A stretch of 64,000 bases of DNA, from assembly GCF_002868715.1 (NCBI RefSeq), contig NZ_PKLZ01000009.1, positions 1 through 64,000 on the forward strand, written 5' to 3'. A program made the position numbers and the translations under genes. The notes beneath the pieces were generated by a model, which worked only from the letters and a program-made list of their open reading frames with translations, was not told where the DNA came from and made no database searches. The DNA is from Kineobactrum sediminis. GTDB taxonomy: Bacteria; Pseudomonadota; Gammaproteobacteria; Pseudomonadales; Halieaceae. This document shows, in pieces, positions 10,805 to 32,301 of the stretch. Numbering within the stretch: position 1 is the first letter of the stretch; each line of letters begins with the position of its first letter.

Positions 10805-13330
10805 ATGAGAGGCCCCATGTTGAAATTCCCGAGGTTCAGGCCGCGCCCCCTGGCGCTGGCGTTATCGCCGCTTATCATGTCTCTGGGCATGGCGGCGCAG
10901 GCACAGGCTGTTGCACTTGAAGAGGTTATTGTCACAGCACAGAAGCGTGCCGAGGGCTCGCAGGACACTCCACTGTCCATCACTGCATTGTCCGAAAAGG
11001 TACTTGAACAGCGCGGCATCAACAGCACCAGCAGCATGATCGGTGAAGTGCTGGGTGTGGGCGGTTTTGAAGCCCCCGGTTCCCGTGGTGCAACCAGCCT
11101 CTCCATTCGCGGTTTTGGCGGTGGTAGTGGTGCCAACCTTTCTACAGACCCCGCCGTCGGCATCTACATGGACGGTGTTTATATCGGCAAGATGAATGGC
11201 TCCGGTATGGACGTTGCCGAACTTGAGCGCATAGAAGTACTGCGCGGGCCCCAGGGTACACTTTACGGTCGCAACTCGACCGCCGGTGCCATCAACTTCA
11301 TTTCCAAGCAGCCTACCGGTGAATTCGGCTTTCGCGCCAAGGGAACCCTGGGTAACTATGACGAGCGTGGCCTGCGTCTCAATACCGACCTTCCCGCCGT
11401 GGGCGAAGTCGGGGAAGGGCTGGGTCGCCTGTCGGCCAGCCTGGGCTACCAGACTCGCGAGCGCGATCCGTTTTATGACAACACCAGTGGCGGTGAAGGC
11501 TTTGACAGCATTGATCGCCAGGCCTGGCGCCTGGCGCTGAAGTGGGAGCTGACCGACAGTCTCACCGCGGACTACGCTTATGATGGCAGCCGTCTGGATG
11601 AAACCAGTGCCATGCAGCAGGTCGTCGGCTTCACTCCGGTAACCCTTGACGGCAGTAGCCGCATTGAGACACTCGCGCAGTTGCGGAGTTTTATGCCACT
11701 GCTGGTATATCCGGGGTCCGATCCGCGTATCTCCGAGCGCCTGATTCCCTCAATGGACCAGACGCTGGCGGTATACAATGAGATAGAAGCACAAGGCCCC
11801 GGCCGTGCCGATAGTGGTGCCGCTGAAAATACCCCGATTGCCGACAACGAAGTCAGCGGCCATGCCCTGACGTTCACCTGGGACGCCGGTGACATGGGCG
11901 CCTTCGGGGATGTTACCTTCAAGTCGATTACCGCCTATCGGGAAATGGATACCTACGTTTTCGGCGATCTGGACAATATTGACAGCAGCCTGGATGCCAA
12001 CGGCGTCGGCGCCATGAATGATCTCATTTTACTGCAATTGGGGTCCGCCTATTTCGGCTCTGGTGGCCAGCCAAGCCCCACTGTTGATTTTTTCTGGAAC
12101 GGTGTGGATACCATTGGCGCTTACCATAGCAAGCAGGATACCCGCTCCGAATACGAACAGTTTTCCCAGGAATTCAATATAATCGGGGCAACCGATCGCC
12201 TGGACTATGTGCTCGGTCTTTACTATTTTGACGACGAAGCCATCTATGATCGTCAGGCCGTATTCCTGGCACCATTGGGTGGTACCGGTACGCAACAGTA
12301 TGACTATACGACAGAGTCGCTGGCCGTATTCGGCCAGGCAACCTGGGTACCTCCCGTGTTGGAAGAGCGGCTTTCGGTAACCGCCGGCCTGCGTTATACA
12401 GAGGAAGACAAGGCAATCTCCTATGACTACCTGAACAGGCCCTTTGGTGCCCCCAGTGCCGGAATACCGGCGCAGGCAGATCTCCAGGAGAATTTCTACA
12501 ATCTTAGCGGTAGCTTCACCGCGGCATACCAGGTGACCGACGGGATGAATGCATTCCTGCGCTACGCCACGGGCTATCGCAGCGGTGGGTTCAATGGTGA
12601 AGTGTTTGCCAACCCCTTTGAAGAAGAGACCATGGAGCAGTGGGAACTGGGTATCAAAAGCGACTGGTGGGACAACCGCCTGCGCGTAAATGGTTCGCTC
12701 TATACCTTCGTTTATGAAGACCTGCAGACCAGCCAGATCAAAACTGACAGTGGTACCGCAACCAGCGTTATTGCCAACGCCGGTGAAGCTGATCGCTGGG
12801 GTGGTGAACTCGAAATTCTGGTGGCACCGATTGAAGACCTGGTTTTGGGCCTGAATTACGCCTATGTGACAGGTGATTTCGAGAAATTCCCCGAGCTGTG
12901 TGGCACCAACGTACCACAGACCTGTCTGTCGACTGTCGAGTCCGCCAAGCGTGGTTCGTCACCGGGTAATCAACTGACTGCGTCCGCCGATTACGTGTTC
13001 GCGCGCACATCGTTTGGTGATATCCGGGGTTATGTGCAGGCCAATTGGCAGGAAGAGTGGTATGAGTCTGCATTATGGACAGGGTCTTATAATGGCGAGC
13101 CCTATATCTATGATCACCTGGTCATGGATGAGCGGACCCTGGTTAATGCCCGCCTGAGCCTGGAAAACGTAAAGGCAGGCGACGGCACCGTAACGGTATC
13201 CTTGTGGGGGAAAAATCTCACTGATAACGACTACCCCACCTTCGGTATCAACTTTGGCGCGCTGGGTATAATTACCGAGCAATATGGCGCTCCGCGCACT
13301 TACGGCCTGGATATCAGTTACGAGTATTGA
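10805..13330 (+). CDS. TonB-dependent receptor
   Basis: An 841-residue outer membrane receptor. A signal peptide ends near AQAQA (about residue 35). The TonB box region EEVIVTAQKR lies at about 39-48. The plug domain includes SIRGFGGG, DGVYIGKMNGSGMDVAELERIEVLRGPQGTLYGRNSTAGAINFISK. The 22-strand barrel ends in Tyr (DISYEY). It has the long loops and overall form of the proteobacterial receptors expanded in marine lineages that take up steroids, aromatics, terpenoids or other large hydrophobic compounds with TonB energy. No siderophore marker is visible. Its location beside acyl-CoA dehydrogenases and TetR regulators suggests import of the compound they degrade. A bidirectional terminator follows at once. 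Confidence 0.9.
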   Translation: MRGPMLKFPRFRPRPLALALSPLIMSLGMAAQAQAVALEEVIVTAQKRAEGSQDTPLSITALSEKVLEQRGINSTSSMIGEVLGVGGFEAPGSRGATSLSIRGFGGGSGANLSTDPAVGIYMDGVYIGKMNGSGMDVAELERIEVLRGPQGTLYGRNSTAGAINFISKQPTGEFGFRAKGTLGNYDERGLRLNTDLPAVGEVGEGLGRLSASLGYQTRERDPFYDNTSGGEGFDSIDRQAWRLALKWELTDSLTADYAYDGSRLDETSAMQQVVGFTPVTLDGSSRIETLAQLRSFMPLLVYPGSDPRISERLIPSMDQTLAVYNEIEAQGPGRADSGAAENTPIADNEVSGHALTFTWDAGDMGAFGDVTFKSITAYREMDTYVFGDLDNIDSSLDANGVGAMNDLILLQLGSAYFGSGGQPSPTVDFFWNGVDTIGAYHSKQDTRSEYEQFSQEFNIIGATDRLDYVLGLYYFDDEAIYDRQAVFLAPLGGTGTQQYDYTTESLAVFGQATWVPPVLEERLSVTAGLRYTEEDKAISYDYLNRPFGAPSAGIPAQADLQENFYNLSGSFTAAYQVTDGMNAFLRYATGYRSGGFNGEVFANPFEEETMEQWELGIKSDWWDNRLRVNGSLYTFVYEDLQTSQIKTDSGTATSVIANAGEADRWGGELEILVAPIEDLVLGLNYAYVTGDFEKFPELCGTNVPQTCLSTVESAKRGSSPGNQLTASADYVFARTSFGDIRGYVQANWQEEWYESALWTGSYNGEPYIYDHLVMDERTLVNARLSLENVKAGDGTVTVSLWGKNLTDNDYPTFGINFGALGIITEQYGAPRTYGLDISYEY

Positions 13331-13410: not shown

Positions 13411-13983
13411 CTAGCCAACAAATTTCTTGCTGGGGGCGGCAACACCTTCGGACTGGGTACCCTTCAGGTAAGCCAGCATGGTATCGGCATCGGAGACTTC
13501 GAATGGGTCGGTCGGGCAGACGTCACCGAAGTCGGGCTCGACAAACATTTTCTCGATCTTGCCATCGTTTACCAGCATGGAATAACGCCAGGAGCGCATG
13601 CCAAAGCCCAGGTTGGACTTGTCTACCAGCATGCCCATTTTACGGGTGAATTCGCCATTGCCATCAGGCAGCATTTTGACGTGTTCAGCACCGACCTGCT
13701 TGCTCCACTGGAACATCACAAACGCGTCATTGACCGAGAGGCAGTAAATGTCATCAACGCCCGCTGCCTTGAATTCCTCATAGAGTGCTTCGTAGCGTGG
13801 CAGGTGATTGGATGAACAGGTGGGTGTAAATGCACCCGGCAGAGAAAATACGACAACTTTCTTGTTGGCGAAGATATCGTCAGTGCTGGTGTCTTCCCAG
13901 CGGAACGGGTTATCTCCACCTACGGATTCGTCGCGTACGCGGGTTTTGAATACGGTATATGGGACACGGCCTTCAGCAATCAT
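13411..13983 (-). CDS. Peroxiredoxin, Prx5-like
   Basis: About 190 residues. The peroxidatic cysteine is in [16 protein letters not shown] (C56). This is the typical Prx5/hybrid-Prx active site with the Thr three residues before Cys, and [10 protein letters not shown] holds the distal Arg. A further Cys occurs in [17 protein letters not shown]. No glutaredoxin domain is fused, so reduction must come from glutathione/glutaredoxin or thioredoxin. The chosen ATG 13983 has AAGGAG 6 nt upstream; the upstream ATG at 14004 lacks one. Function: reduction of H2O2 and organic peroxides in the cytoplasm. It stands alone between the TonB receptor and the cytochrome cluster, sharing a terminator with the former. 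Confidence 0.9.
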
Positions 13984-14164
13984 GGTAGCTCCTTGTTGAG
14001 TCAACTGAATAAGTTCAGGCTGCTCTGCGGTGCAGCAGCCTTTGACGGTCTATCATCTTAACGCGAATGAGCGCCGTCCGATAATCGATAAATACGATTC
14101 ATAACCTCTATTAGATTGAATATTGACCCGGGTCCAGCCTGTTTCAGGGTCAAAACTGCCGGAC

Positions 14165-16447
14165 CTAGGGCAATTCACGCACCCTGTGCACCACGGAGAC
14201 ATCCTGGGAACGGCCCTCACCATGGCAGACGGCGCACTGCTCCACTACATCGCCATTATCCACCGCTTGCTGTGTGGTGGCAAAATTGCCGCCATTGCTG
14301 CTCATGTGAGCCCGGGCCACGGCATCGTCATGACAGCCGCTGCAGGCACTGCTCATGGCAGTGACCACGGTATCATCGCGCGGATCGCGATGATCGTCCC
14401 CGGTGTCGATCGTGGTAGCCAGCACCCCTGCTGCAAGCGGGAGGCTGAAACCGTCGTCCGTATGGCAGGCCAGGCAATTATCAAGACGACCCGGGTAATG
14501 CACGGTTTGCTCATCGTAGACATAGGTTGTAAAGCCGCGGAAACCAACCAGCTGCAGGGGCTGTTCACGAATCGAGGCAGCGTGAATGCCGTGGACGATG
14601 TGTTTGAAGTCCAGGGTTTCTTCCTGCTTGCCGTCGGTCGGGGGAGTGCGCGCGATACTGCGGGTCTCGCGATCGGTATTTCGCGGATTATGGCAGCTGA
14701 CACAGTTGTCGATATTGTCGGCCCGATTGTTGCCATGAAGCACCAGCGAGCCGTGGCAGGCCAGGCACTTGTTGATCTCAACAGCCTGGCGCCGGGGTAC
14801 CGGCAGGCCATCGGGCTCATCAATCGAGAAGAAAGCGTGTGCGTCACCCACCGGTATGCTGGCAGGAGAGCCGCCGTCATCAATAGCCACCGCCGGGTGG
14901 CCTTCGATAACGGCGACACCGCTACCGGATGCGGGAATACCGGGCCCCACACTGGCATCCGGAATCGGCAGCGGCATCGTGACGCTGTAGCTGCCATCAC
15001 CCCGGGGGAGGGCTGAAGTCAGGGCATTGGCCGCTATCGAACTGGCGTTATCCGCATTGTTGCCGGTGTTGTGGTAGTCTCTTGTGTCCCACGCCACGCG
15101 CACGTTCAGGCTGCTGTTGCTCTGTTGCCAGACCGGGTCATTGGCGAGGTCATAGTCTTCCCCGGTTAACGGATTGCTGACCCTGAAGCTCACCGTGGCC
15201 TGTTCGCCGGGCGAACTGTTCTCAACGCTGATCACTTCAGCCTTGAAGGCCTCCCTGGCCTCTTCAAAGGCGATGCGGTGGCTGTCCTGGATACTGCCGG
15301 CGCGCCCATCCTCGGCATGGCAGCTGGCGCAGCGTGAATTGTCTTCCTGGCCACCCGCATGGCGGCTGAAATCGAGATCGTCGTGACAGCTGCCGCACGC
15401 CGCGATAGACGGGTACTGCGCCCAGTTGTCGCCCTGCGCGGTCAGCACCAGGTCGTCCCTGTCCGCTCCCGTCGCCGTGCCGGCGTGACAATTTACGCAG
15501 CGGCGGATGTCCTGGGGGTAATTGACATCCGAGTAGTCGTGTTTGCTATCCCGGAAACCATAGATGACGTATTCGCCACCGGCCTGCACACTGGGTAGAT
15601 CGGCGCCCCGGTGGATCTTGTGGATCATCACCTTCATATCGACGGAATTGCCGCTGTTGGCATCGGTTGACCCGGGGTTGTGACAGGTCACACAGTAGTT
15701 GATCTCAACGCGCCCGCCGCCGTGCAATGCCAGCTGGTCGTGGCAGCGATTACAGTTGGGGGTGGCGGCAATATCACGCCGGAAGATGTTTTCGGTGGCG
15801 CCACTGGCGGGAACCCAGTCATAGTCAGGATTGGCGGGTTCCCGGCCATTGCTGAATTGTATTGCCACCCGGTGGGTGAGTTCCGGCTGGTAAGCCAGGT
15901 CAAGACCCTCGCTATTGGCCTGGGCCAGAATGTCCTGGGGGAGGTCCGTGATTGATGTTGCAAATTGGTAGCGGTAAGTGCCATCGCCGTTATTGGTGAA
16001 AACGCCATTACTTTCCGTTGTCGCCTGCAGCCTTGATTCTGTGCCCGGTCCCACACCCGGCTGTTCAATGCGGTTGATATAGGACTGCCAGTTGCCGGTG
16101 AGGTTACCCTCGGGTACTGGCGCGAGCCTGGCGATAATAAAGCGCACGTCAGCCGAGCTGAGATCGGTAATGGCGGTATTGGCGGCATCACTGAGCTGGA
16201 AGTCGACCAGCGGGCGACCGTCATCGGGAATATCGACCGCCGTAATAAAGGGGAAGAGCGCTTCGGCTTCAGCATAGGGCGTCGGGGAAGCTTGCGGCAA
16301 ATCAGGTTCCGGCGGCGCCACTGGCCCACCGGGTGGCGTGGGGCCAGGTTCTACTCCGGTGGCGCGATCGCCGCCGCCACTGCCACCACAAGCCACCAGC
16401 AGCGCGAGCAGGCAGGCCATGATTGAAATACGTCCAAAGCTGGTCAT
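14165..16447 (-). CDS. mtrC: OmcA/MtrC-family decaheme outer membrane cytochrome (lipoprotein)
   Basis: A 760-residue lipoprotein. The signal ends in a lipobox LLVAC with Cys20, followed by a Gly/Pro-rich linker. Ten haem motifs are visible: CNRCH 232, CVTCH 252, CVNCH 317, CGSCH 351, CASCH 373, CLACH 561, CVSCH 582, CLACH 658, CSGCH 702 and CAVCH 738. They form two groups of five separated by a beta-rich region, the layout of MtrC/OmcA, where pentahaem domains alternate with split-barrel domains. Known homologues sit on the cell surface and pass electrons to metal oxides, electrodes or flavins. It is the last gene of the five-gene run, 20 bp after the mtrB-like gene. No convincing terminator follows. 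Confidence 0.92.
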   Translation of the reverse strand: MTSFGRISIMACLLALLVACGGSGGGDRATGVEPGPTPPGGPVAPPEPDLPQASPTPYAEAEALFPFITAVDIPDDGRPLVDFQLSDAANTAITDLSSADVRFIIARLAPVPEGNLTGNWQSYINRIEQPGVGPGTESRLQATTESNGVFTNNGDGTYRYQFATSITDLPQDILAQANSEGLDLAYQPELTHRVAIQFSNGREPANPDYDWVPASGATENIFRRDIAATPNCNRCHDQLALHGGGRVEINYCVTCHNPGSTDANSGNSVDMKVMIHKIHRGADLPSVQAGGEYVIYGFRDSKHDYSDVNYPQDIRRCVNCHAGTATGADRDDLVLTAQGDNWAQYPSIAACGSCHDDLDFSRHAGGQEDNSRCASCHAEDGRAGSIQDSHRIAFEEAREAFKAEVISVENSSPGEQATVSFRVSNPLTGEDYDLANDPVWQQSNSSLNVRVAWDTRDYHNTGNNADNASSIAANALTSALPRGDGSYSVTMPLPIPDASVGPGIPASGSGVAVIEGHPAVAIDDGGSPASIPVGDAHAFFSIDEPDGLPVPRRQAVEINKCLACHGSLVLHGNNRADNIDNCVSCHNPRNTDRETRSIARTPPTDGKQEETLDFKHIVHGIHAASIREQPLQLVGFRGFTTYVYDEQTVHYPGRLDNCLACHTDDGFSLPLAAGVLATTIDTGDDHRDPRDDTVVTAMSSACSGCHDDAVARAHMSSNGGNFATTQQAVDNGDVVEQCAVCHGEGRSQDVSVVHRVRELP

Positions 16448-16467
16448 CTCACTTCTCTCCCGGGGCT

Positions 16468-18723
16468 TTATTGCCAGCGATACAACACTGACAGGCCCAC
16501 GTAATGAGCACTTTCATTCGGATTGTGCTGGCCAAAGGTCAGCACCTTGTCGATAGTATCGGCCTCAACTCCGCGCCAGGCCCAATCATTGCTCTGGTAG
16601 CGGTAGTAACGGTAGTTCAGTCTCAGGGATAATGCCTCCTGCCAGTGCCAGGTCCCGGTTGCGTCGAGCTGGTGCAGACGGGTATCCACTGTTGGCAGAT
16701 TGGCGGGATTCAGGTCTGTCGCTGCGACCTGGCCAAAGTCCTGGGTGCTGTCGGTATCCACATAGCGATAGTCGAGCGCAAATTCCAGTTTTTCGTGGGG
16801 TTGCCACTGCAGTTGCCCACCCAGAACCAGGCTCTCGTCGCGGCTGGCGAGGCGCCAGTTGCGGCTCGGGTCACTGGCCTGTGGCAGCGGGCTGGTAACA
16901 GCAAAAGGGTTCTTCTCCTGACCACCCCGAAAAGCACGACCTCCCTGTTCGGCATCATAAATATCCACGCCACCGTGGACGCTGAAATACAGGCTTTTAT
17001 GGGGTGCATAGCCGGCACTGATCTGCAGGCTCTCGAAGGTTGACTCGGTCAGCCCCAGCTCACTTTTATCAAAATCATCCTCGCGCAAAAGCAGGTTGAG
17101 ATTGAAACTCCAGCCGGGTGCCGGCAGATAATTAAAATCGAGCCTGGCCTGCTGTTGTTCCCGGTTGGCCAGATAATGCTGGCTGAGCAGGGGATGGTTG
17201 ATGAAACGCTGGCTATCCGGCGTGTCATTGATCAGTGCGGCATCCAGCAGGGCGAAGTAGGACTGGTCCCAGCGATAGGTGTCGGCCGCCCGGTCGGCCC
17301 AGGTTAGTTCCAGCGTGGTGCGAAAGGATTGCCAGGGCTGGATACGGTAGTTCAGCGTATAGCGATCCTCCTGGGTCTCCTCGGTGGCGGCGTTTTCACG
17401 GGTGACTTCCTGAAAGCGATAATCCAGGCCAAGCTTGCTGCGTAGTGGGAGGCGATAGTCGGCCGCCAGCTCAATGGCCTGGGTGCGCAGGTCATGGGTA
17501 CTGTTGTAGACGGTGAGTTCGGGGCGGGATTGGCTGCCTCCATCGCCGGGGATATAGCGGTATCCATCCCGCGGGGCATCGTAATCGCGGTCGCGTAGCG
17601 TGTAGCCCAGTTCCAGCTTCAGTTTACGGGTAGCTTGCCAGTGCAGCTTTGCCCGCAGGTTGCCGGTTGTCACTTCGCCGTCAAAACGCTCTCGCGGCAG
17701 CCCTTGCTGCACCTCCAGTGCCGGATTGACAGAGTAGGGAAGAACCTCCTGGTCCTGTTCCGCCAGCGCCAGACGCGCGTCAAACTGCAGCTGTAGCGTT
17801 CGACTGAAGCGATAGCGACCATCGAGTCGTGCGCTGCTGTGGGTATTATCCGGCGCCAGGCCTACCGCGCCTGTCCCCGCCGGGTAGCTGACATCCGGCC
17901 CGTAGGAGTTAAAGGGATTCTGCCAGCTGAGTTGCCGGTCGCGGTTATCAAACTCCGACCAGCTGAGCTGCCCCTGAAGGTGCAGGCGGGTACCGCTGTA
18001 GGCCAGGGTCGTATCAATATCAACGGTGCGGTGATCTATGGGAGCCGGCAGCAGTACCGCATCGCCCGCTGCCGCATCCACATAGATCGCCGCGCCAACA
18101 TCGCCTGTGCCCTCGCGGGTGCTATAGCGCAGCGACGATGTCAGCTGCCATTGCTCATCAAGCTGCGCCTCCAGGCCGAGGTGCCAGCTATTGCGCTCCA
18201 GTTCCCTGTCGAATTGTCGCAGGTTGTCCGCAAGCGCTGTCCATTCACCGGTGGTCTGGCCGGTTACCCACTGCGCCGGAAGGATCAGCTCGGTATCACT
18301 GCCCCGGAAGGGCGTCATGCCGCTGTCATTGCGCACCTGCAACTGGCTATCGAAGCCGATGGTAACGCTCAGGCGGCCGGGTAGTCCCCAGCGGATTTCC
18401 CCTTTCCGTGTATCCAGCCCGACATCGGATAAAGACACCTGCCAGTAACTTTCCGTACCGTTGAACTGTCGCCAGTCGAGATTGCCAAGTAGTGTTGCTC
18501 CCTGCTCTTGCAGGCCATTGTACTGGCCGGCCATGAAGGTATCTGTACTGGCGTAGGTCAGGCCCAGGTCCAGGGCGCCGCGATAATCAGTCTGCCAGCG
18601 AGTGGCGAGCGGCCTTGTTTCTGTCGCCAGCGGGGCAAAGGGATCTTCGGCCACGGCGCCCGTAGCAGTGCAGGCAAATGCCGCTAACAGCAGTTGGCGG
18701 TATCCCTGCCCAGCCGGTTTCAT
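16468..18723 (-). CDS. mtrB: MtrB/PioB-family decaheme-associated outer membrane porin
   Basis: A 751-residue protein with an N-terminal signal (cleaved near GAVA/ED) and a long series of alternating beta-strands of 10-20 residues, fitting a 26-strand-type barrel. The strands are rich in Trp, Tyr and Arg. In Shewanella the MtrB barrel sheathes the MtrA wire and brings it into contact with MtrC. The CKxC pair found near the N-terminus of Shewanella MtrB is absent here; PioB-type members also vary. Its start overlaps the stop of the MtrA-like gene in ATGA (18720-18723), so synthesis of porin and wire is likely coupled. The MtrC-like gene follows 20 bp later. Confidence 0.9.
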   Translation of the reverse strand: MKPAGQGYRQLLLAAFACTATGAVAEDPFAPLATETRPLATRWQTDYRGALDLGLTYASTDTFMAGQYNGLQEQGATLLGNLDWRQFNGTESYWQVSLSDVGLDTRKGEIRWGLPGRLSVTIGFDSQLQVRNDSGMTPFRGSDTELILPAQWVTGQTTGEWTALADNLRQFDRELERNSWHLGLEAQLDEQWQLTSSLRYSTREGTGDVGAAIYVDAAAGDAVLLPAPIDHRTVDIDTTLAYSGTRLHLQGQLSWSEFDNRDRQLSWQNPFNSYGPDVSYPAGTGAVGLAPDNTHSSARLDGRYRFSRTLQLQFDARLALAEQDQEVLPYSVNPALEVQQGLPRERFDGEVTTGNLRAKLHWQATRKLKLELGYTLRDRDYDAPRDGYRYIPGDGGSQSRPELTVYNSTHDLRTQAIELAADYRLPLRSKLGLDYRFQEVTRENAATEETQEDRYTLNYRIQPWQSFRTTLELTWADRAADTYRWDQSYFALLDAALINDTPDSQRFINHPLLSQHYLANREQQQARLDFNYLPAPGWSFNLNLLLREDDFDKSELGLTESTFESLQISAGYAPHKSLYFSVHGGVDIYDAEQGGRAFRGGQEKNPFAVTSPLPQASDPSRNWRLASRDESLVLGGQLQWQPHEKLEFALDYRYVDTDSTQDFGQVAATDLNPANLPTVDTRLHQLDATGTWHWQEALSLRLNYRYYRYQSNDWAWRGVEADTIDKVLTFGQHNPNESAHYVGLSVLYRWQ

Positions 18724-19595
18724 CGCGTTAACCTGGCCCCGGAGGGGTGGTTGGAGCCATGTACCTGGCTATGGCAGTTGAGGCAGTTTTTGCCCAGTAT
18801 GTTCTGGTTGCGCCCGGCTCCTGCCAGGCCCTCACTGCCATAGGGGACACTTGGGTGAAAAGCGGCGACGTGGCACTGTTGGCACAGGGCCGGTGCCCGG
18901 GTTATCAGCAGGCGCTCGTGTACCGCACCGTGTGGTCTGTGGCACAGGCTGCAATCTTCTGCTGCCGGGGGGTGTTCCCAGAGGAAGGGCCCACGCTTTT
19001 CCTGGTGGCATTGCAGGCAATTGTCGGTCACCGTGGGCTGGCGCAGGTTGGCTTCGGCCAAGCTCCCATGGGGGTTGTGGCAGTCGCCGCAGCTGGTCTT
19101 GCCCTCGGCGATCGGGTGCCTTGAAGGCAGTAGCATTTCCGCCTGTACCCGGCTGTGGCAATCCAGGCACATGCGCTGTGATCCGGCCGGCGTAAGTGCG
19201 GGATCCTGGTGCTGATGGCTGTTGTGACAACTGTCACAGGCAAGGCCCTCCTGCTGGTGATCGCTGTTGCTCCAGTGCATGGTCGTGCCGCCGGTATGGC
19301 AAGCGGTACAGGCACCGTTGCGCTCCCCGGTGGGGGATAACCACAGTGGTCCGAAGCTGACTCCGGGCATATGGGTGGTCGGGTCCGCAGCGTGTTCGGC
19401 GCTGTCGCCGTGACAGCTGAGGCAACTCCCGTTGCCGCCGCCATTCAGGCCGCCGTGTACGGTCTGGAATACGGCATGCACCGGCGCGTCGGCACTGGCA
19501 GTATGGCAGCCCAGGCAGTCGGCGCCGTCGTCGGCGGCTGACGCTGGTATTACCAGAGCCGCCAGTAAAGCGAATGCGAGCGCGCGCAGGGTCAC
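18720..19595 (-). CDS. mtrA: MtrA/DmsE-family periplasmic decaheme cytochrome c
   Basis: A 291-residue protein with a signal peptide (about 1-20, ending ASA). Ten CxxCH motifs are regularly spaced: CLGCH, CLSCH, CTACH, CDSCH, CLDCH, CGDCH, CLQCH, CSLCH, CQQCH and CLNCH. Length, haem number and repeats such as CHNPHG and SFGPLW match the DmsE/MtrA family. In MtrCAB it forms the haem wire that crosses the outer membrane inside MtrB. No DmsA/DmsB molybdoenzyme gene is adjacent, and an MtrC homologue is, so an MtrA role is more likely than a DMSO-reductase role. ATGA overlaps join it to both neighbours (19592-19595, 18720-18723). Confidence 0.92.
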   Translation of the reverse strand: MTLRALAFALLAALVIPASAADDGADCLGCHTASADAPVHAVFQTVHGGLNGGGNGSCLSCHGDSAEHAADPTTHMPGVSFGPLWLSPTGERNGACTACHTGGTTMHWSNSDHQQEGLACDSCHNSHQHQDPALTPAGSQRMCLDCHSRVQAEMLLPSRHPIAEGKTSCGDCHNPHGSLAEANLRQPTVTDNCLQCHQEKRGPFLWEHPPAAEDCSLCHRPHGAVHERLLITRAPALCQQCHVAAFHPSVPYGSEGLAGAGRNQNILGKNCLNCHSQVHGSNHPSGARLTR

Positions 19596-21175
19596 CAGTC
19601 AGCCTTGAAGTCAGTGTTGATCCCGTCGATGGCGAAGGTCATGGGCAGGGAAACCCAGTGTCCGGCCCCGGGGTTATCGACCCCGTGCAGTGCTATACCA
19701 ACGGTCAGTTTCTGCCCGCGACCAAAATGTAATCCCTTGGGCCGGGTATCCAGTGGTCGCAGCAGCGTGACACTCCAGCGTCCATCGGCAAATTGGGCCT
19801 CTGCTGCGACCAGGCTGTCCTCATGCCAGTCGATCCCCGCCAGCAGCGTGCCGGTTTCGACGGTTGCCGTATCCTCCAGGTTCACCCGCCAGACTTCGGC
19901 GAATTTGCCGGTGGCTTTGAGTTCCGCCAATGCGGCTTCATCGCGGATGATGGCGGGCCGGCCGATCTGTCGATCCTGCAGGCGCGATACCAGCAGATAC
20001 TTGTCAAGTTGCTGGCCACGATCCCGGGTCATGCCAGGCATATCATCATGACAGGCGGCGAAGCAGCCGGCCTGCCTAAACGCTTCGTTGCGATCGTCGC
20101 CCCACATGAGCGCGATGTCGCGGTCCTGTAAAGAACCGCGCCAGCTGAGTGTCACCAGCAGCTCCTGGCCGCTACGCTGGAAGCCTATTTCAACATCCCG
20201 GGTGGCCGGCTTGAGCTTGCCCGTGGCGAGCGAGGCGCCCATCTCCTCCTCGTCACCCCGGTGACATTGCTGGCAGCTGCGATCCTGGCGCAGAGACTGT
20301 GATCCCGCGTGCTCACTCAGCAGCCATTCGCTGTCTGACTGGCCCGGGTAAAACAGGGTAACCGAGCTGGACTGCTGCGCCTGGGGGATCAGGGGGGGAA
20401 CCCCCGCTGCGGATACATGGGCAATACCCACATGACAGCTTACACAGGTCTTGTCATCCTGCACCATGACCTTGTGGTAGCTCGTGGCCCTGGCGGATAC
20501 CTGTGGATCGGAAGCCATGGCAACCAGGTTGTGGCATGTGGCACAGCCCCTGGAGCGGTTGTCGACCATTATACTGTGGGGAGTTCGGCTGTTGTGAGGG
20601 TTATGGCAGCTGGTGCAGGGTGGGTTCGAATCGGCCAGTGAGGCAAGCCCGTGTATGCCGGATTCCTGCGCCTTGTGACAGCCGGTACACACCTCGGCCT
20701 GGCTGTCTGCGCTTAGTACTGTGTCAGCCGTGGTGTGTATGTCGTGACAGGTGGCGCAGGCCAGGCCCTGTTGCTTGTGGTGGGCATTGTCCCAGTGGCT
20801 TGCGGTGTTGTCGCCGTGGCAGGCCAGGCACTGGTCGTTCTGGCTCTCTACCGTGGCTGACCAGCGCGGGCCGAAGCTGATTGCGGGTGCCACCTGGGTG
20901 GGGGAGCGAGTGTGGTCGGCGCTGGGCCCATGACACTCTTCGCAACCCCGTTGCGCCACTGGGGTGTCCGGATTATCGGCGTTGCCGTGGGCGCTTTCCA
21001 GCAAAGTATGCACCGGTGAGTCATCGCCGAACTGATGGCAACTGCGACAGGTATCCATGCCGGCATAACCGGATTCAGACGCGTGTGCCTGTGATCCCGA
21101 CAATATGATCAGGGCCAGTGCCAGCAGTGCACTACGGATTTGCATCGGGCTATTCCCTCGTAAAATGGCCATCAT
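19592..21175 (-). CDS. Multiheme cytochrome c with C-terminal ethylbenzene-dehydrogenase-like haem domain
   Basis: About 527 residues. A signal peptide around QIRSALLALALIILSG is followed by nine CxxCH motifs (from CRSCH at 43 and CEECH at 78 to CVSCH and CQQCH). The first part resembles the DmsE/MtrA repeat pattern (SFGPRW, CHNPHNS). The last ~220 residues are beta-rich and resemble the EB_dh/cytochrome c-552 haem-binding domain (WSVTLLRPLDT, FGRGQKLTVGIALHG). That domain carries an unusual CFAACH (C-x3-CH, residues 371-376) followed by DDMPGM, whose Met could be an axial ligand. ATG 21175 overlaps the cymA-like stop (ATGA) and has GGGAGG upstream; ATG 21145 is an alternative with a cleaner signal peptide. 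It is probably a periplasmic electron relay between the CymA-like and MtrA-like proteins, or a reductase subunit; this is unproven. Confidence 0.85.
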   Translation of the reverse strand: MMAILRGNSPMQIRSALLALALIILSGSQAHASESGYAGMDTCRSCHQFGDDSPVHTLLESAHGNADNPDTPVAQRGCEECHGPSADHTRSPTQVAPAISFGPRWSATVESQNDQCLACHGDNTASHWDNAHHKQQGLACATCHDIHTTADTVLSADSQAEVCTGCHKAQESGIHGLASLADSNPPCTSCHNPHNSRTPHSIMVDNRSRGCATCHNLVAMASDPQVSARATSYHKVMVQDDKTCVSCHVGIAHVSAAGVPPLIPQAQQSSSVTLFYPGQSDSEWLLSEHAGSQSLRQDRSCQQCHRGDEEEMGASLATGKLKPATRDVEIGFQRSGQELLVTLSWRGSLQDRDIALMWGDDRNEAFRQAGCFAACHDDMPGMTRDRGQQLDKYLLVSRLQDRQIGRPAIIRDEAALAELKATGKFAEVWRVNLEDTATVETGTLLAGIDWHEDSLVAAEAQFADGRWSVTLLRPLDTRPKGLHFGRGQKLTVGIALHGVDNPGAGHWVSLPMTFAIDGINTDFKADW

Positions 21176-21747
21176 TGAGCCGCCCTCCCTGAATTGTCGG
21201 GATGAGCAATCCCCGCATGGCAATCGATACAGGTTTTGCCCCGGGCTGCCATGTCCTGATGATAGTCGCGTGCCTTGGCAGATTGCAGGGCGAGGTCCAT
21301 CCGCGTCACTGTGTGACAGTCGCGACATTCCTGGGAATCGTTCGCACGCAGGCGCGCAATTTCACGCGCCTTCATTGCGGGTGCGTGGGCTGCATATTTT
21401 TCCGGCGTATCAATGACTCCGGTTATTTTGCCCCACACCTCTCGTGAGGCTTCCATTTTGCGCACCATTTTCGGGATAAACGCCTTTGGAATGTGGCAGT
21501 CCGCGCAAGTGGCATTAACACCCATGGCGTTGCTGTAATGGCTGGTTTTCTGCAGTTGTGGATAGGTGTTTATCCTTATCTCGTGGCAACTGATACAAAA
21601 CTCTTCGCTGCTGGTTGCCGCAAGCCCGACATCCATTACCAGCCAGCCGGAGACACCAATAGCCATACCTGCAACCAGTAAAGTCAGCACGGAATAGCGG
21701 CGTGACGGTTGCCGCAATGAGCGCAACCACTTCAACAGGTATCGCAC
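21172..21747 (-). CDS. NapC/NirT (CymA-like) membrane-anchored tetraheme quinol dehydrogenase
   Basis: A 191-residue protein. A short cytoplasmic N-terminus and one transmembrane helix (about 20-42) are followed by a periplasmic domain with four haem motifs: CISCH, CADCH, CRDCH and CIDCH. Size and spacing fit NapC/NirT/CymA. Such proteins oxidise menaquinol or ubiquinol at the inner membrane and reduce periplasmic cytochromes. It is the first gene of the minus-strand run that continues with the EB_dh-type multiheme, MtrA, MtrB and MtrC homologues, so it is the likely electron entry point. The 186-bp divergent region upstream holds an FNR-like motif. Confidence 0.9.
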   Translation of the reverse strand: MRYLLKWLRSLRQPSRRYSVLTLLVAGMAIGVSGWLVMDVGLAATSSEEFCISCHEIRINTYPQLQKTSHYSNAMGVNATCADCHIPKAFIPKMVRKMEASREVWGKITGVIDTPEKYAAHAPAMKAREIARLRANDSQECRDCHTVTRMDLALQSAKARDYHQDMAARGKTCIDCHAGIAHPDNSGRAAQ

Positions 21748-23193: not shown

Positions 23194-24426
23194 CTAGTGC
23201 AGTACGCCGATGACCCCAACAATTTTTACTATACCCAGGCCAAATGCAATCGCAACCACCAGCGCTCCCAGCAGGTTGGCGACAGGGCCGTTGATATGCC
23301 TGCCAAGCAAACGGCGACTGTTCATCACTACCAGCAGGAATACCGCCACAATGGGCAGTAGCAGTCCGTTGGCAACCTGTGCGAACAAAATGGCGGCCAG
23401 TGGTTTGCTGCCGAGCGCGGCAAATGCCGTGCCCGAAAGCAGAACCGTTGCCCACACGGCACGGAAGCCACGCCCGTCAAGGGAATTGCGCCAGCCCATG
23501 GCACCACACACCGCATAGGCGGCAGCCAATGGTGCGGTGATGGCGCTGGTAAGGCCACCGGCAAACAGGCCGGCCGCAAAGACGTAGCGTGCTGAAGGCC
23601 CGAGCAAGGGCTCCAGTTGTCGGGCCAGGGAGGCACCATCAAAAACCAGCCCGCTGTTGAAGAACGCGGCGGCGGCGGTGCTGAGGATCGCCAGGGTAAT
23701 CAGCCCACCCAGCCCGATGGACAGGCCACTATCCATACGTGATTCGCGGATAGCCTGGTCAACAGGCACCTGTGCCGACCACTTTTCACGCACCGAATTG
23801 GCGTGCAGGAACAGGTTGTAGGGCACAACGGTGGTGCCTATCAGCGCTATCACTGTCATCGTTGAACCCGGTGGCAGGCTTGGCCGGAAAAGGCCGGTGA
23901 GTAGTTCTCCCATAGACGGGGCCACCATTACCGCGGTCATCAGGAATACGATGCTCATCAGCAGCACCAGCACGATGAGTGTATTCTCCAGTAGTCGATA
24001 ACGACCGCTGGAGAGCAGCAATCCGGCCGCGATACCAATCACTAGTGACCAGAACGCTGTTCCCGTGTTGCTCACGGTATTGAGTGCCAGCGCTGCTCCC
24101 GCGATATTGCCGGCTTCATAGGCGGCGTTGCCGATGCCGACCGCAGCGACAATGAGTATGACTGCCAGTTTGCCGAACAATGGGCTGTTGAAGCTCGCAC
24201 GCATGGCCTCGGCCAGCCCCGCCCGGGTGACCAGGCCGAGGCGTGCACTCATTTCCTGCAAAATCATGGTCGCGATCACTGAAAATACCAGTGCCCAGAC
24301 CAGGGCGAAGCCGAAATGAGCGCCGGCACTGCTGGCTGTGGTAATGGTGCCGGGACCGATGAAGGCGGCGGTGACAAGAATGCCGGGACCAAAGCGGATA
24401 CCGGTTCCAGGTTTGGGTTTGCTCAT
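23194..24426 (-). CDS. Nramp-family divalent metal transporter, GPGT variant
   Basis: A 410-residue integral membrane protein with about 11 hydrophobic helices in the LeuT-like Nramp order. Helix 1 carries FIGPGTITT (residues 24-27 GPGT) where classical MntH/Nramp has DPGN. Helix 6 has VVPYNLFLH (201-204) where the family has MPHN with the metal-binding Met. The Asp, Asn and Met ligands of Mn2+/Fe2+ are therefore all replaced, while the surrounding family sequence (QEMSARLGLVTRAGLAEAMR) is kept. It may move another ion or use another coordination. Its neighbours are unrelated; it is divergent from a glycosyltransferase gene. Confidence 0.85.
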   Translation of the reverse strand: MSKPKPGTGIRFGPGILVTAAFIGPGTITTASSAGAHFGFALVWALVFSVIATMILQEMSARLGLVTRAGLAEAMRASFNSPLFGKLAVILIVAAVGIGNAAYEAGNIAGAALALNTVSNTGTAFWSLVIGIAAGLLLSSGRYRLLENTLIVLVLLMSIVFLMTAVMVAPSMGELLTGLFRPSLPPGSTMTVIALIGTTVVPYNLFLHANSVREKWSAQVPVDQAIRESRMDSGLSIGLGGLITLAILSTAAAAFFNSGLVFDGASLARQLEPLLGPSARYVFAAGLFAGGLTSAITAPLAAAYAVCGAMGWRNSLDGRGFRAVWATVLLSGTAFAALGSKPLAAILFAQVANGLLLPIVAVFLLVVMNSRRLLGRHINGPVANLLGALVVAIAFGLGIVKIVGVIGVLH

Positions 24427-26575: not shown

Positions 26576-26989
26576 ATGAATGTGCTTGAAACCGAGACCT
26601 GGTCAATGGCGTTAGCCCCCGAATGGTGGGCTGAGGCGGAAGAGGACGGCACCATCCTGGTGGGTGATGAGGATGATGTAGGCTGTATAGAAATCAATAC
26701 ACTGCACAAGGAAGCCGGCGATTTTGATGCAGCGGAACTGAAGGCCATTGCCACGGCTGAATCCCCGGAGGCCGGGGACTGGCAGCAGGTGCGCCTGGGG
26801 GATTTTGGCGGCTGGTATACCGCTTTCACGGAGGGTGATGCCGGAGTGCGCGAATGGTACGTTGCCGCGGGCTCACAGTTACTCTTTATTACCTACAGCT
26901 GCGACCTGGATAATGCCGGCATGGATGACTCCGCGGTAGATGCCCTGCTCGACACCCTGGCTGTGTCTTCCGCCACAGAAGTCAGCTGA
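26576..26989 (+). CDS. Small acidic protein of unknown function
   Basis: A 137-residue, strongly acidic, cytoplasmic protein without signal peptide or membrane helices. Trp-rich segments occur near the start ([17 protein letters not shown]) and in [17 protein letters not shown], with a strand pattern that suggests a small alpha/beta domain such as those found in immunity or stress proteins. I do not recognise a family. ATG 26576 follows the rimI stop by 10 bp with GGGAG upstream, so it belongs to the holD-like/rimI operon. Its stop overlaps the convergent rnfE stop by 8 bp, and no terminator is seen between them. Confidence 0.7.
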
Positions 26990-27695
26990 TGGTGCCGGTC
27001 ACCCGGACGCGTTTTGCGCCCTTGACCGGCGCCGCCCTGAGCGCATCCTGGCGGCGCTTGATTTGCCGGTCCACCAGGTTTTTACCGGCAATAAGCAAGC
27101 CGGTAAAGATGAACGCACCCGGTGGCAGGATAGCGAGCAGGAAGGGCTGGTAATCCGCCACCAGTACCCATTTCCAGTTGGCGGCAGCAGGGCCGAACAG
27201 CAGGTTCATGTCGGCAAACAGGGCGCCCGTGCCCAGTAGCTCCCGCAGTGCGCCCAGGACGATCAATACCACCCCAAACCCCAGTCCCATACTCAGGCCG
27301 TCATAGAACGCGGGCCCGATGGCATGCTTGCTGGCGAAGGCATCGGCGCGACCGAGAATCACACAATTAGTGGTAATCAGAGGCAGGAATATACCCAGGA
27401 TAAGGTATAACTCATAGGCAAAGGCCTGCATCAAAAGCTCAGTGCAGGTCACCGCCGACGCAATGATCATCACGAACACCGGTAACCTGACCGCGTCGGA
27501 CACGACATTACGGATTATGGATACCGCGGTATTTGAGCAGATCAGCACCAGGGTAGTTGCCGCCGCAAGCCCCAGTGCATTGACGACACTACCGGTGACC
27601 GCCAGTAGCGGGCAGAGGCCGAGTAGCTGCACAATGGCCGGGTTATTCTTCCATAAGCCATTGAGAGTGAGCTCGCCGTAGCTGGGGGTTTTCAT
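26982..27695 (-). CDS. rnfE: Rnf/Rsx electron transport complex subunit E
   Basis: A 237-residue membrane protein with about six helices. It is homologous to RnfA, with the shared [18 protein letters not shown] and [19 protein letters not shown] (the paired Cys contribute to the membrane Fe-S cluster between RnfA and RnfE). It ends with a basic cytoplasmic tail. Part of the Rnf complex, which couples ferredoxin/NADH electron transfer to ion movement, or which keeps SoxR reduced in enterobacteria. It is the last rnf gene; nth, which follows in E. coli, is not present. ATGA overlap with rnfG. Confidence 0.95.
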
Positions 27696-28348
27696 GCCTG
27701 GTCTCCCGTCGCCGGCTTGTCGGCCGGGGTTGCAAATACAATAGCACGATGGCTTTCGACGAATAACAGTGCTCGCAGCACTCCGGCTACCACAGCCCGG
27801 GGGGTAATGGTGGCCCCGGTAAACTGGTCAAAGACCCCTCCGTCCTTTTTAACCCCCCAGCGCTGAGGTGGCGGGCTGTCCAGTGAGCGGCCGTTGAAAT
27901 CCAGTATCCAGTCCGATTTCCTGAGATCGATTTTATCGCCCAGGCCCGGCGTCTCCCGGTGGTTCAAAGCCCGTACCCCGGCGATACTGCCATCACGGTT
28001 AACGCCGACAATCAGTTCAATATCCCCGCTGTAACCATCCCGGACCAGCACCGGGACAATCACTGCCACCGCCTTGTCACCCTGTCTGGCAATATATAGC
28101 TGTCGATCTTCACGCAGGCCCAGCCCGGGAGTATCAGCCGGTAACGGCAGGGTGTCATCGAGCATGCTGTTATCGTGGCGTTCCCGAGGCACGACTTCCA
28201 GTAAAGCCCTTTGCTCTGCCTGGCGTCGTTCCTGGGCGATGGTATCCCGGGTCAGCAGGTAGGTGCCGGTGATCAGCAGTGCGGTAACCAGGGCAAAAAG
28301 CGCCAGTAAGGCACTATTGCGGGTAATGGATTGCCCAAGCATGCGCAT
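27692..28348 (-). CDS. rnfG: Rnf/Rsx electron transport complex subunit G
   Basis: A 218-residue protein with an N-terminal transmembrane helix and a periplasmic flavin domain. The covalent-FMN motif [11 protein letters not shown] is present, with the acceptor Thr followed by the typical Pro. Conserved [12 protein letters not shown] and SDWILDFNG also mark the family. FMN here passes electrons between RnfD/RnfC and the membrane cluster. Its ATG shares one base with the rnfD stop (TGATG), and its stop overlaps rnfE by 4 bp. Confidence 0.95.
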
Positions 28349-29373
28349 CAGGGTTGGCCTCCGGATTTGGAGTGCCCGTAACTGCGCGGCTGGGTGTAAT
28401 GATCGATAAAGGGCGCTGAAAAATTGGCGACCAGAACAGCAAAGGCGACCGCGTCGGGGTAGTTACCCCAGGCGCGGATGAGATACACCAGCGTGCCGAT
28501 CAGGGCACCGAAAATCAAGCGTCCGCGCACCGAGACAGCCGATGAAACGGGGTCGGTGATAATGAAAAATGCCCCGAACATGGTGGCGCCGCTGAGCAGG
28601 TGAAAGAGGGGGGAGCCGCCGCTTGCGGAGCTGCCGCCGTCGTAGAACAGGGCTGCCATCAAGCCCAGTGAGGCCAGCATGGCCACAGGTGCGTGCCAGC
28701 TGAATACCCGCCGGTAAAGCAGCCACAGGCCCCCCGCCAGAAACGCCAGGTTCACCCATTCCCAGCCAATACCCGCCCAGCGCCCAAAGAGAGGGTCGCG
28801 CCACAAATCTTCCAGTAACAGGCTATTGTTCTGGCGGACCATGTCCAGCGGTGTCGCCATGGTGACAGCGTCGTACTGTGCTGGAAGAAAACAGGCCTGC
28901 AGTGCCTGCAGCAGTCCCGGCACCTCTCCCAGCCCGCGTGGTGGCGCCCAAGCGGTCATTTGTACCGGGAATGAAATGAGCAGTACCACATAGCCGACCA
29001 TGGCAGGGTTGAAGGGATTGTAGCCAAGCCCTCCGTACAGGTGCTTGGCCATCAGAATGGCGGATGCCACCCCTATTGCGATCAGCCACCAGGGCGCATA
29101 GGGCGGTAATGCTATGCCCAGCAACGTGGCGGTCACCAGGGCGCTGTAATCCTGCAAATAGAAACCCAGTGGCTTGCGACGTAAAGTCAGCGCCAGGGCC
29201 TCGCAGGCAACGGCGACCAGGCTGGCCCAGATAATGTTGACCAGGCTGCCGAAGCCGAAAAACCAGGTCAACGCTATTACGCCCGGCACCGTGGCGATTA
29301 ATACCCGCCGCATTACCGAGGCAGTACTGTCGCTCCCGTGGGCGTGGGGTGAACTGATCCGGATCAATGTCAT
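28348..29373 (-). CDS. rnfD: Rnf/Rsx electron transport complex subunit D
   Basis: A 341-residue polytopic membrane protein (about nine helices). The periplasmic covalent-flavin site is LLSGATMFGAFFIITDPVSS, and the family segment GGLGYNPFNPAMVGYV is present. Together with RnfG it holds FMN and forms much of the ion-translocating core. Start and stop are joined to rnfC and rnfG by one-base overlaps. Confidence 0.95.
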   Translation of the reverse strand: MTLIRISSPHAHGSDSTASVMRRVLIATVPGVIALTWFFGFGSLVNIIWASLVAVACEALALTLRRKPLGFYLQDYSALVTATLLGIALPPYAPWWLIAIGVASAILMAKHLYGGLGYNPFNPAMVGYVVLLISFPVQMTAWAPPRGLGEVPGLLQALQACFLPAQYDAVTMATPLDMVRQNNSLLLEDLWRDPLFGRWAGIGWEWVNLAFLAGGLWLLYRRVFSWHAPVAMLASLGLMAALFYDGGSSASGGSPLFHLLSGATMFGAFFIITDPVSSAVSVRGRLIFGALIGTLVYLIRAWGNYPDAVAFAVLVANFSAPFIDHYTQPRSYGHSKSGGQP

Positions 29374-31109
29374 CAGGGTGTTTCCCGCTCTGCTGGCGAC
29401 TGTTCAGCGGCGGAGATCCTGTCCCGCAATCGCTGTACAGTGGCCTCCAGTGCGGTCACGATTTTATTGTCTTCGCCAGCTTCGCGGCTTAATGCCAGCC
29501 GTTGCTCTGTCTTTGCCAGTTTTTCCCGCAGGGCTGCCAGCTGTTTCACACCGCCGTCCGGCGTATTGGCGGGGGCTGTACCCTGTTGTGCCGTTTTCCG
29601 GGCCCTGGCCCGTTCAATCGCGGCCTGCACCGGATCTTCATCCCCACCTTCGGCGGCCAGCTCAGCGCGCTTTTCGGCCGCCTGTTTGCGGGCAGCCCGT
29701 TTCGCTTCGCGCTCGGCTTCTTCCCGGGCGATCCGCTCTTGTCGCGCTTCAAAACGCAGGCGGGCCTGCTCTGATTTTTCGTGGTCGCGGCGCTGCTTGA
29801 CTATGTCTGCTTTCGCCGCCCGGTAATATTGCACCAGCGGGATATGACTGGGGCATACCCAGGAACAGGCGCCGCATTCAATACAGTCGAACAGGTTGTG
29901 CTGTTCAAGCTTGTCAAATTCCTTGCCCTGGGCGAACCAGAACAACTGCTGGGGTAAGAGGCTGGCGGGGCAGGCCTGGGCGCACAGGCCACAGCGTATG
30001 CAGGGCTGGGCGGGTGGCGGCGTGGGCATTTCCCGGGTCGTCGGCGCCAGCACGCAGTTGGTGGTCTTGACCACCGGAACCTCGGCTCCGCTAACAGTGA
30101 ACCCCATCATTGGCCCGCCCATGATGAGGCGTTCGCACTTTTCGGCGCTGAAGCCCGCCAGTGCCAGCAGATGAGCCATGGGGGTGCCCAGCAGCACCTC
30201 AAAGTTCCCGGGGGCGGTTACCGCATCGCCGGTAACCGTGGTGATACGTGAAATCAACGGGCGCCCGTAAATGACAGCATTTCGTACTGCCACCGCCGTG
30301 CCCACGTTCTGGCAGATGACACCGATATCGGCGGGCAAGCCCCCGCTGGGGACCTGTTTGCCAGTAAGGATTTCAATCAATTGTTTCTCGCCACCAGAGG
30401 GGTACTTGGTGGGGAAAGTGATGATTTCAACATCGCTGCCCGCTGCTGCAGTCTTGAGTGCGGCGATGGCTGCCGGCTTGTTATCCTCAATCCCGAACAG
30501 GATTTCCTGGGGCTTGAGGATATGGCGCATAATGTCAACGCCAGCGAGGATGTCGGCGGCGCGCTCCTGCATCAGGATATCATCCGCGGTAATGTACGGC
30601 TCGCACTCGGTGCCATTGATGATCAGGGTAGTGATGCCGGCGCCGGGTTTGCCCGCCAGTTTTACCGCGGTCGGGAAGCCTGCGCCGCCCATGCCGGCTA
30701 TACCGGCACTACGGATTTTCTCGAGTAGTGCCGATGGCTCGCAAGCCCGGTAATTCCGGATGCCGCTGGGTTCCTCCACCCATTCATCACGGCCATCGCA
30801 CTCAATGACGACACAGGGCGCACTGTAACCTGAAGGGTGGGGTACCGGTCGATCTTCTATCGCCAGTATCTGGCCCGAGCTGGGTGCATGCAGCGGTACG
30901 CTGACATGACCGGCAGCCGAGGCAATCAGCTGTCCCTTGAGAACCCGGTCGCCCGGGCTTACTAAAGGCTGTGAGGGTGCGCCAATGTGTTGCGCCAGCG
31001 GCAGGATCAGCTGGGAGGGAATACCGGCAGGACGTATTCCGGTGGCAAGCGACTGGAGCTTGTTCTCCGCCGGGTGAATGCCACCATGAAAATCATGGAT
31101 CCGCCTCAT
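29373..31109 (-). CDS. rnfC: Rnf/Rsx electron transport complex subunit C
   Basis: A 578-residue protein. It begins with a barrel-sandwich domain ([11 protein letters not shown]). A Complex-I 51-kDa-like NADH/FMN domain follows ([13 protein letters not shown] and [16 protein letters not shown]). Two 4Fe-4S sites are present: [12 protein letters not shown] and [12 protein letters not shown]. The last ~130 residues are a charged, Ala/Arg/Glu-rich coiled coil ([21 protein letters not shown]), variable in length in this family. It is the NADH-interacting peripheral subunit. ATGA overlap with rnfB. Confidence 0.95.
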
Positions 31110-31726
31110 GCCGCGCGCTCTTCCGGGGAAGCGTCCGAGGCAATGACGTCGAGGTTGCGGCTGGCAGTTTGCGGCAATGGCCAGTGCCAGGACTGCAGGC
31201 CCTCTTCTACCGGAATCATGTCAATACAGTCGACCGGGCAAGGTTCAACGCAGAGGTCACAGCCGGTGCATTCACTGGCGATTACAGTATGCATCTGCTT
31301 GGCGGCGCCGAGGATTGCGTCCACCGGGCAGGCCTGGATGCACTTGGTGCAGCCGATGCATTCATCTTCACGAATATAAGCCACGGTTTTGGCTTTTTCC
31401 TCCCCGTGTTCTTCATCCAGTACCGGGGCCTCTACGTCCAGCAAGTCTGCCAGCGCCTGGATTGTGGCCTGGCCTCCGGGCGGGCACTTGTTGATGGCCT
31501 CGCCGTTGGCAATGGCCTCGGCATAGGGCCGGCAGCCGGGGTACCCGCACTGGCCGCACTGGGTCTGGGGTAGAATTTCGTTAATCTGGTCGGCGATGGG
31601 ATTGCCTTCGGTACGAAAACGTACCGCGGCGTAACCCAGCAGTGCACCGAAGGGTGCTCCCAGGCCAACCAGGGCAACAAGTGCAGCAAGCAGCGGGTAT
31701 TGTGCTATCAGTTCGACCATATTCAT
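31106..31726 (-). CDS. rnfB: Rnf/Rsx electron transport complex subunit B
   Basis: A 206-residue protein. An N-terminal membrane helix is followed by the 4Fe-4S motif [16 protein letters not shown], then a ferredoxin domain with two clusters: [14 protein letters not shown] and [14 protein letters not shown]. This is the ferredoxin-facing subunit of Rnf. The C-terminal tail is short. ATGA overlaps join it to rnfA and rnfC. Confidence 0.95.
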
Positions 31727-32301
31727 ACCAACCCGGCAAAGCCCATAAAGGCCAGCGCCATCATGCCGGCGGTGACCATACCAATGGCCGCACCCTCGAA
31801 GGGTTCCGGTACATCCGCGACCGCCAGCCGCTCACGCAAGGCGGCAAACAAAACCAGCACCAGGGAAAAACCCAGGGCTGCGCCAAAACCGTAAAACAGC
31901 GACTGCAAAAAGTTGTGATCCTTATTGAGATTGAGCAGGGCTACCCCCAATACCGCGCAGTTGGTGGTAATCAGGGGCAGATACACACCCAGCACCCGAT
32001 GAAGGAGCGGGCTGCTCTTGCGCACCACCATCTCGGTAAACTGGACCACAACCGCAATCACCAGGATAAAGGAGATGGTACGCAGGTATTCGAGCCCCAG
32101 CGGCTCCAACAGCAGGTTGTAGGTCAGGTGGCTGCAGGCAGAGGCGAGGGTGAGGACAAAGGTCGTTGCCATGGACATCCCCATGGCGGTTTCCAGTTTA
32201 TTGGAGACACCCATGAAGGGGCACAATCCGAGGAATTGCACCAACACAAAATTGTTGACCAGGATGGCGCTGATCAACAGGATGGAGTAGTCCGCTAGCA
32301 C
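31723..32301 (-). CDS. rnfA: Rnf/Rsx electron transport complex subunit A
   Basis: A 192-residue membrane protein with six helices and the two half-site cysteines: [13 protein letters not shown] and [16 protein letters not shown]. It starts with GTG ([18 protein letters not shown]), with only a weak RBS. First gene of the rnfABCDGE operon, about 120 bp after metG on the same strand; that gap may hold the rnf promoter. Confidence 0.95.

Follow-up and report, generated by a model that had tools for sequence, protein, structure and literature searches.

The 64,000-nucleotide stretch of DNA analysed here (the window), part of contig C39 of the 4.06-Mb genome of a Haliea-like member of the Halieaceae, carries an intact five-gene operon that is a Group 6 MtrCAB, a type known from earlier work on these bacteria. 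Taking identity and architecture together with direction, we put at roughly 0.55 the probability that the operon specifies a functional Group 6 conduit, equipped with partners of its own in the inner membrane and the periplasm, and with a net outward flow of electrons. The original prediction had held that such a conduit would not be expected in this setting; this view is wrong, the Halieaceae MtrCAB clusters, MtrA-DOMON included, having been published as 'Group 6' in 2022 (Baker et al. 2022, mBio, PMC8805035). What is added here are details of the MtrA-DOMON protein, the missing CXXC of MtrB and the lack of menaquinone genes.

Organization of the mtr gene cluster

The five genes, all on the minus strand and all with intact frames, occupy window positions 14165-21747 in the order cymA, mtrA-DOMON, mtrA, mtrB and mtrC. 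The cymA homologue (21172..21747, 191 aa, GTG start) encodes a NapC/NirT-type tetrahaem protein with an N-terminal membrane helix; mtrA-DOMON (19592..21175, 527 aa) an MtrA-like octahaem part followed by a C-terminal DOMON/EB_dh module; mtrA (18720..19595, 291 aa, GTG start) a decahaem cytochrome placed in the MtrB barrel; mtrB (16468..18723, 751 aa) the outer-membrane beta-barrel sheath; and mtrC (14165..16447, 760 aa) a surface decahaem lipoprotein of the OmcA/MtrC family. The names first given to these parts are backed by TIGR03507, TIGR03509, TIGR03508 and a NapC/NirT match, and the protein initially called a periplasmic multiheme is indeed multihaem but is more exactly an MtrA-like part fused to a DOMON/EB_dh module. 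CXXCH motifs numbered 4 in the CymA homologue, 9 in MtrA-DOMON, 10 in MtrA, none in MtrB and 10 in MtrC, so that, with the single CX3CH of MtrA-DOMON, the total of 33 CXXCH and one CX3CH agrees with the earlier count of about 34. Since all other long frames of the window combined (29,355 aa) hold only one CXXCH, the motif density of the operon is not due to chance.

The start of mtrA-DOMON was reset from 21328, where the longest ORF begins, to 21175; the gene then overlaps cymA by ATGA, and its product has a signal-like N-terminus. The mtrA-DOMON/mtrA joint is a GTGA overlap, the start codon of mtrA being GTG, and the mtrA/mtrB joint is again ATGA; between mtrB and mtrC there are 20 bp, which include a purine-rich stretch ahead of mtrC. 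Three overlaps are thus present, as originally described, but two rather than three of them are ATGA. They suggest that translation of the mtr genes may be coupled, while the fixed stoichiometry previously read from them is backed by nothing beyond the overlaps themselves.

Identity of the encoded proteins

The first protein scored 212.5 bits against PF03264 (cut-off 24.1) and 226 bits against TIGR02161 (napC_nirT), and because the latter score lies below the curated cut-off of 310.6, 'CymA homologue' is the careful name. Its homologues in Halieaceae are 54-74% identical to it, and the protein is likely to be a ubiquinol/ubiquinone oxidoreductase. MtrA scored 246.8 bits against TIGR03508 (DmsE/MtrA; cut-off 192.2), its best structure match being chain A of 6R2Q, the MtrCAB complex of Shewanella baltica (E 3.8e-65); MtrB scored 345.4 bits against TIGR03509 (MtrB/PioB; cut-off 240.05), and its residues 44-749 best matched chain B of the same structure (E 3.7e-30). 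For MtrC, homology searches might have pointed outside the OmcA/MtrC family, but the score of 505.7 bits against TIGR03507 (cut-off 209.3) places it within. Its structure matches were led by MtrF (3PMQ) and OmcA (4LMH), with chain C of 6R2Q lower down, and its lipobox is LVAC, with Cys20 invariant across 12 relatives. The mtrC, mtrA and mtrB genes, adjacent and each past a curated cut-off, constitute an MtrCAB by the definition of Baker 2022 (contiguous, in any order), and, going by their sequence matches to chains A, B and C of 6R2Q, the three proteins may form a haem chain across the outer membrane.

Besides these chain-by-chain matches, the S. baltica system and that of the window share a decahaem MtrA and MtrC. 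They differ in gene order, the window having cymA inside the operon; in the occurrence of STC/FccA in Shewanella and of MtrA-DOMON in the window; and in the lack from the window of both the MtrB CXXC and, in its host, menaquinone genes. An N-terminal CXXC was absent from the window's MtrB and from all Group 6 relatives compared, and was found in three MtrB proteins of other groups (L067, L085 and L086).

The MtrA-DOMON protein and its probable dihaem module

MtrA-DOMON scored 123.7 bits against TIGR03508, below the cut-off, and 41.8 bits against PF09459 (EB_dh/DOMON; cut-off 33.3). In 20 of 20 orthologues, which are 40-64% identical, C371-x3-C375-H376 and H506 are invariant, and nine CXXCH motifs are also common to them. 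Relatives lacking the DOMON part (L022/L035 and L026) have eight CXXCH and no CX3CH, indicating that it is the DOMON module that contributes the CX3CH and a ninth CXXCH. MtrA-DOMON probably binds a tenth haem, on this conserved CX3CH, which the published 'nonaheme' count leaves out; the haem may be covalently attached, with H376 and H506 as its ligands.

The predicted structure of MtrA-DOMON had a mean pLDDT of 67.5, being better in the C-terminal sandwich and below 50 at residues 370-391. By fold, the DOMON module matched the gamma subunit of ethylbenzene dehydrogenase (2ivf_C; E 1.1e-08, TMt 0.55) and, among other solved structures, the haem subunit of NXR and, more weakly, dopamine beta-hydroxylase. 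By sequence profile the match to 2ivf_C was weak (E 0.051), too weak for the haem ligands of the module to be equated with those of ethylbenzene dehydrogenase, and this equation was dropped.

We found the same dihaem module (FYPGQ, CXXCH, GC(F/W)xxCH, HxVS) in genomes from two other families of the same order, where it is fused to a NapC/NirT-type dehydrogenase (L128:2762-4507 and L129:3084-4940, both minus strand) encoded beside nirS, the gene for cytochrome cd1 nitrite reductase; the module is thus carried by a quinol dehydrogenase there and by an MtrA-like octahaem part in the window. In a third genome (L130:688-2022, plus strand) it forms a dihaem protein alone. Because the module is fused to a quinol dehydrogenase elsewhere and encoded beside one here, it is probably the electron partner of the CymA homologue, and, since it occurs on both NapC/NirT dehydrogenases and an MtrA-like cytochrome, it may be a relay part that can be reused. 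Among 37 Halieaceae genomes it was detected in eight, all of which also match mtrC, one of them partially. A proteobacterial MAG has a separate gene for the DOMON part upstream of mtrA (L060:5725-6903, plus strand); its product is 27% identical and contains one CXXCH and one CX3CH. Not every DOMON part is therefore fused to an MtrA-like one.

Distribution and genomic neighbourhood

Halieaceae are coastal marine heterotrophs and are described as aerobes. Matches to TIGR03507 above the cut-off were found in 13 of 37 Halieaceae genomes (the window's own counted), versus 9 of 368 genomes drawn from the rest of the class, and the genome of the window has one MtrC-family match only. In a named collection, Parahaliea, Halioglobus, Pseudohalioglobus, Seongchinamella, Mangrovimicrobium and Litorirhabdus had matches as well; so did Ketobacter, Neiella and others that do not belong to the family and have two or more mtrC copies. 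Group 6 has been described as mostly Halieaceae with a sole mtrC downstream of mtrAB, its non-Halieaceae members having two copies, and as specifically possessing MtrA-DOMON and an inner-membrane tetrahaem cytochrome (PMC8805035). The operon of the window shares the A-B-C order, the one mtrC downstream of mtrAB, MtrA-DOMON, the adjoining tetrahaem cytochrome gene and the Halieaceae host; it differs in having no 'mono' or 'ohc' cytochrome gene among its five. In the MtrC tree, the four Haliea rows grouped together at SH-aLRT 100, inside the Halieaceae (Group 6) clade; the tree was built without named Groups 1 and 2, the separation of which is taken from Baker 2022. A search of plasmids for named Vibrio, Aeromonas and Shewanella MtrC yielded one weak Photobacterium match.

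The five-gene order is common to many Halieaceae. The usual site of Group 6 clusters is immediately upstream of hemH, with two exceptions given by the same authors (PMC8805035); since they allow exceptions, the lack of hemH does not disqualify the window. Among six relatives tested, hemH followed mtrC in five, whereas in the window its place is taken by a peroxiredoxin gene (13411-14004, minus strand), 160 bp downstream of mtrC. Like those of other Haliea, the cluster of the window lies between this gene and, upstream, pectinacetylesterase-like and Nramp metal transporter genes (the latter at 23194-24426, minus strand), and both the peroxiredoxin and the Nramp genes are kept in Haliea sp. E1-2-M8 (L031) and an uncultured Haliea MAG (L033), the neighbourhoods of which are collinear with that of the window at 67-91% protein identity. 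These three genomes thus have the cluster site in common, and a further genome, G001, has at least the peroxiredoxin neighbour. In the Haliea line, the cluster may have been relocated or gained separately. GC content was 0.57-0.63 in the operon and 0.54-0.62 in the flanks, too alike to be informative, and base composition was dropped as a sign of transfer. In some Halieaceae, octahaem cytochrome genes (PF13447) lie divergent from mtr clusters (L016:1705-3357 and L020:111-1505, both minus strand) and probably correspond to the 'ohc' of Baker 2022; no PF13447 gene was found beside the cluster of the window.

The peroxiredoxin gene, which comes after mtrC and is co-directional with it in each of the four Haliea genomes seen, could mean that the system serves surface redox balancing or detoxification, electrons passing out mainly to soluble oxidants (peroxide, iodate, metal ions) and not for growth, and Shewanella MtrCAB is reported to reduce H2O2 during iodate reduction (PMC9732548). 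However, the gene stands 160 bp away, promoter and terminator scans of the locus gave results at chance level, and other Halieaceae have hemH in its place, and we regard such a role as quite unlikely.

Maintenance of the operon

As judged from sequence comparison, the five mtr genes are maintained and under purifying selection. Against L031 and L033, all five gave dN values of 0.18-0.29 with dS above 1 or saturated, and between L031 and L033 the dN/dS ratios of the five genes were about 0.09-0.17. In G001 (L019), a single-contig genome of the same genus, we observed apparent frame breaks in mtrB (near 11440-11530) and mtrA-DOMON (near 14850-14930). The mtrB break falls at a C7 run and is probably a sequencing error, and the breaks in G001 were discounted as evidence of decay for this reason.

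That the operon was left behind by horizontal transfer and is now silent or in decay might be argued from its patchy occurrence in the family (13/37 genomes) and from the apparent breaks in G001. The intact frames, the invariant haem motifs, the low dN relative to dS against two Haliea relatives and the single chromosomal site common to three Haliea genomes all speak against this, as does the C7 run, typical of sequencing error, at the mtrB break, and we consider the idea highly improbable.

Respiratory context and direction of electron flow

An inventory of the genome, made by single-family searches, revealed aa3 and cbb3 oxidases, one molybdopterin oxidoreductase that reached no equivalog cut-off, and no RuBisCO, which fits the 'mainly aerobic' character proposed originally; the placement in a marine gammaproteobacterial group other than those best known for MtrCAB likewise held, the group being the Halieaceae. 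No menD above the cut-off was found in any of 37 Halieaceae genomes, the best score in the genome of the window being 73 bits (cut-off 244.2), and 7 of 14 control genomes passed; MqnA/D were absent from all 23 Halieaceae genomes searched. The quinone reported for Halieaceae genera is Q8 (PMC4391266). Because no menaquinone genes were found, mineral respiration of the Shewanella type is not established. CcmH is present in the genome, and the type II secretion secretin GspD is encoded in the window itself, at 59240-61285 (plus strand; 574.6 bits, cut-off 351.35), suggesting that the cytochromes can be made and exported, MtrC export being dependent on type II secretion in Shewanella (PMC12175506).

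In the pathway that we favour, electron exchange with the ubiquinone pool would fall to the CymA homologue. The DOMON module with its two haems, one on CX3CH, would dock to this protein, the octahaem MtrA-like part of MtrA-DOMON would bridge the periplasm, and MtrA within MtrB would take electrons across the outer membrane to surface MtrC. The conduit may then act as an auxiliary outlet at low oxygen and not as a means of Shewanella-like Fe(III)-oxide respiration. Since the host seems to have ubiquinone and no menaquinone route, export would need acceptors of fairly high potential, for example Mn(IV), iron complexes in oxidised form or other oxidants. CymA is assigned potentials from -0.3 to 0 V and UQ-8 one of +0.11 V; even so, S. 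oneidensis oxidises UQ-8 when given a high-potential electrode (PMC5852097). Shewanella-style Fe(III) respiration should not be assumed for this conduit, and we found no literature report of Fe(III) oxide or electrode reduction by Halieaceae, nor of the expression or activity of any Halieaceae conduit.

Outward flow to high-potential acceptors appears to be the leading reading, with inward flow as a serious rival. In the latter, electrons from outside (from Fe(II), Mn(II), reduced humics, a cathode or partner cells) would reach ubiquinone by way of MtrA-DOMON and the CymA homologue, and then the aa3/cbb3 oxidases, providing a heterotroph with extra energy. A host seemingly confined to ubiquinone and an MtrB without CXXC suit electron uptake at least as well as export; S. 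oneidensis requires the first Cys of this motif to reduce Fe(III) (PMC12175506). A further parallel is the Mto/Imo uptake pathway of Sideroxydans ES-1, a host that likewise lacks menaquinone genes; its CymA-like tetrahaem protein, ImoA, is proposed to pass electrons to the quinone pool (PMC13390432). ES-1, however, is a chemolithoautotroph, whereas the genome of the window lacks RuBisCO, giving no sign of autotrophy, and has MtrC, a surface protein typical of acceptor-reducing systems. The word 'Biocath' in the title of L033 is a mere name. On balance, we view inward flow as possible but somewhat unlikely. A broader proposal, which we advance with slightly more reserve still, is that Group 6 MtrCAB is linked to ubiquinone, the CymA homologue and the DOMON dihaem relay replacing the menaquinol-driven front end of Shewanella, and that in these oxygen-respiring marine heterotrophs it works inward or both ways, topping up respiration with extracellular electrons. 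An apparently ubiquinone-only host with a full MtrCAB is a case provided by nature for asking whether a conduit's direction is set by the quinone, and, if the MtrCAB of Halieaceae works, extracellular electron exchange would be part of ordinary oxic-zone ecology, beyond specialists of anoxic sediments.

Elsewhere in the window, positions 26982-32301 (minus strand) carry rnf/rsx-like genes, among which RnfC (29373-31109) scored 767.7 bits on the RsxC model and the other subunits were judged by eye. In the same genome, a haem-copper oxidase subunit I fragment with three in-frame TGA codons is located at a contig end (G000:C30:22-330).
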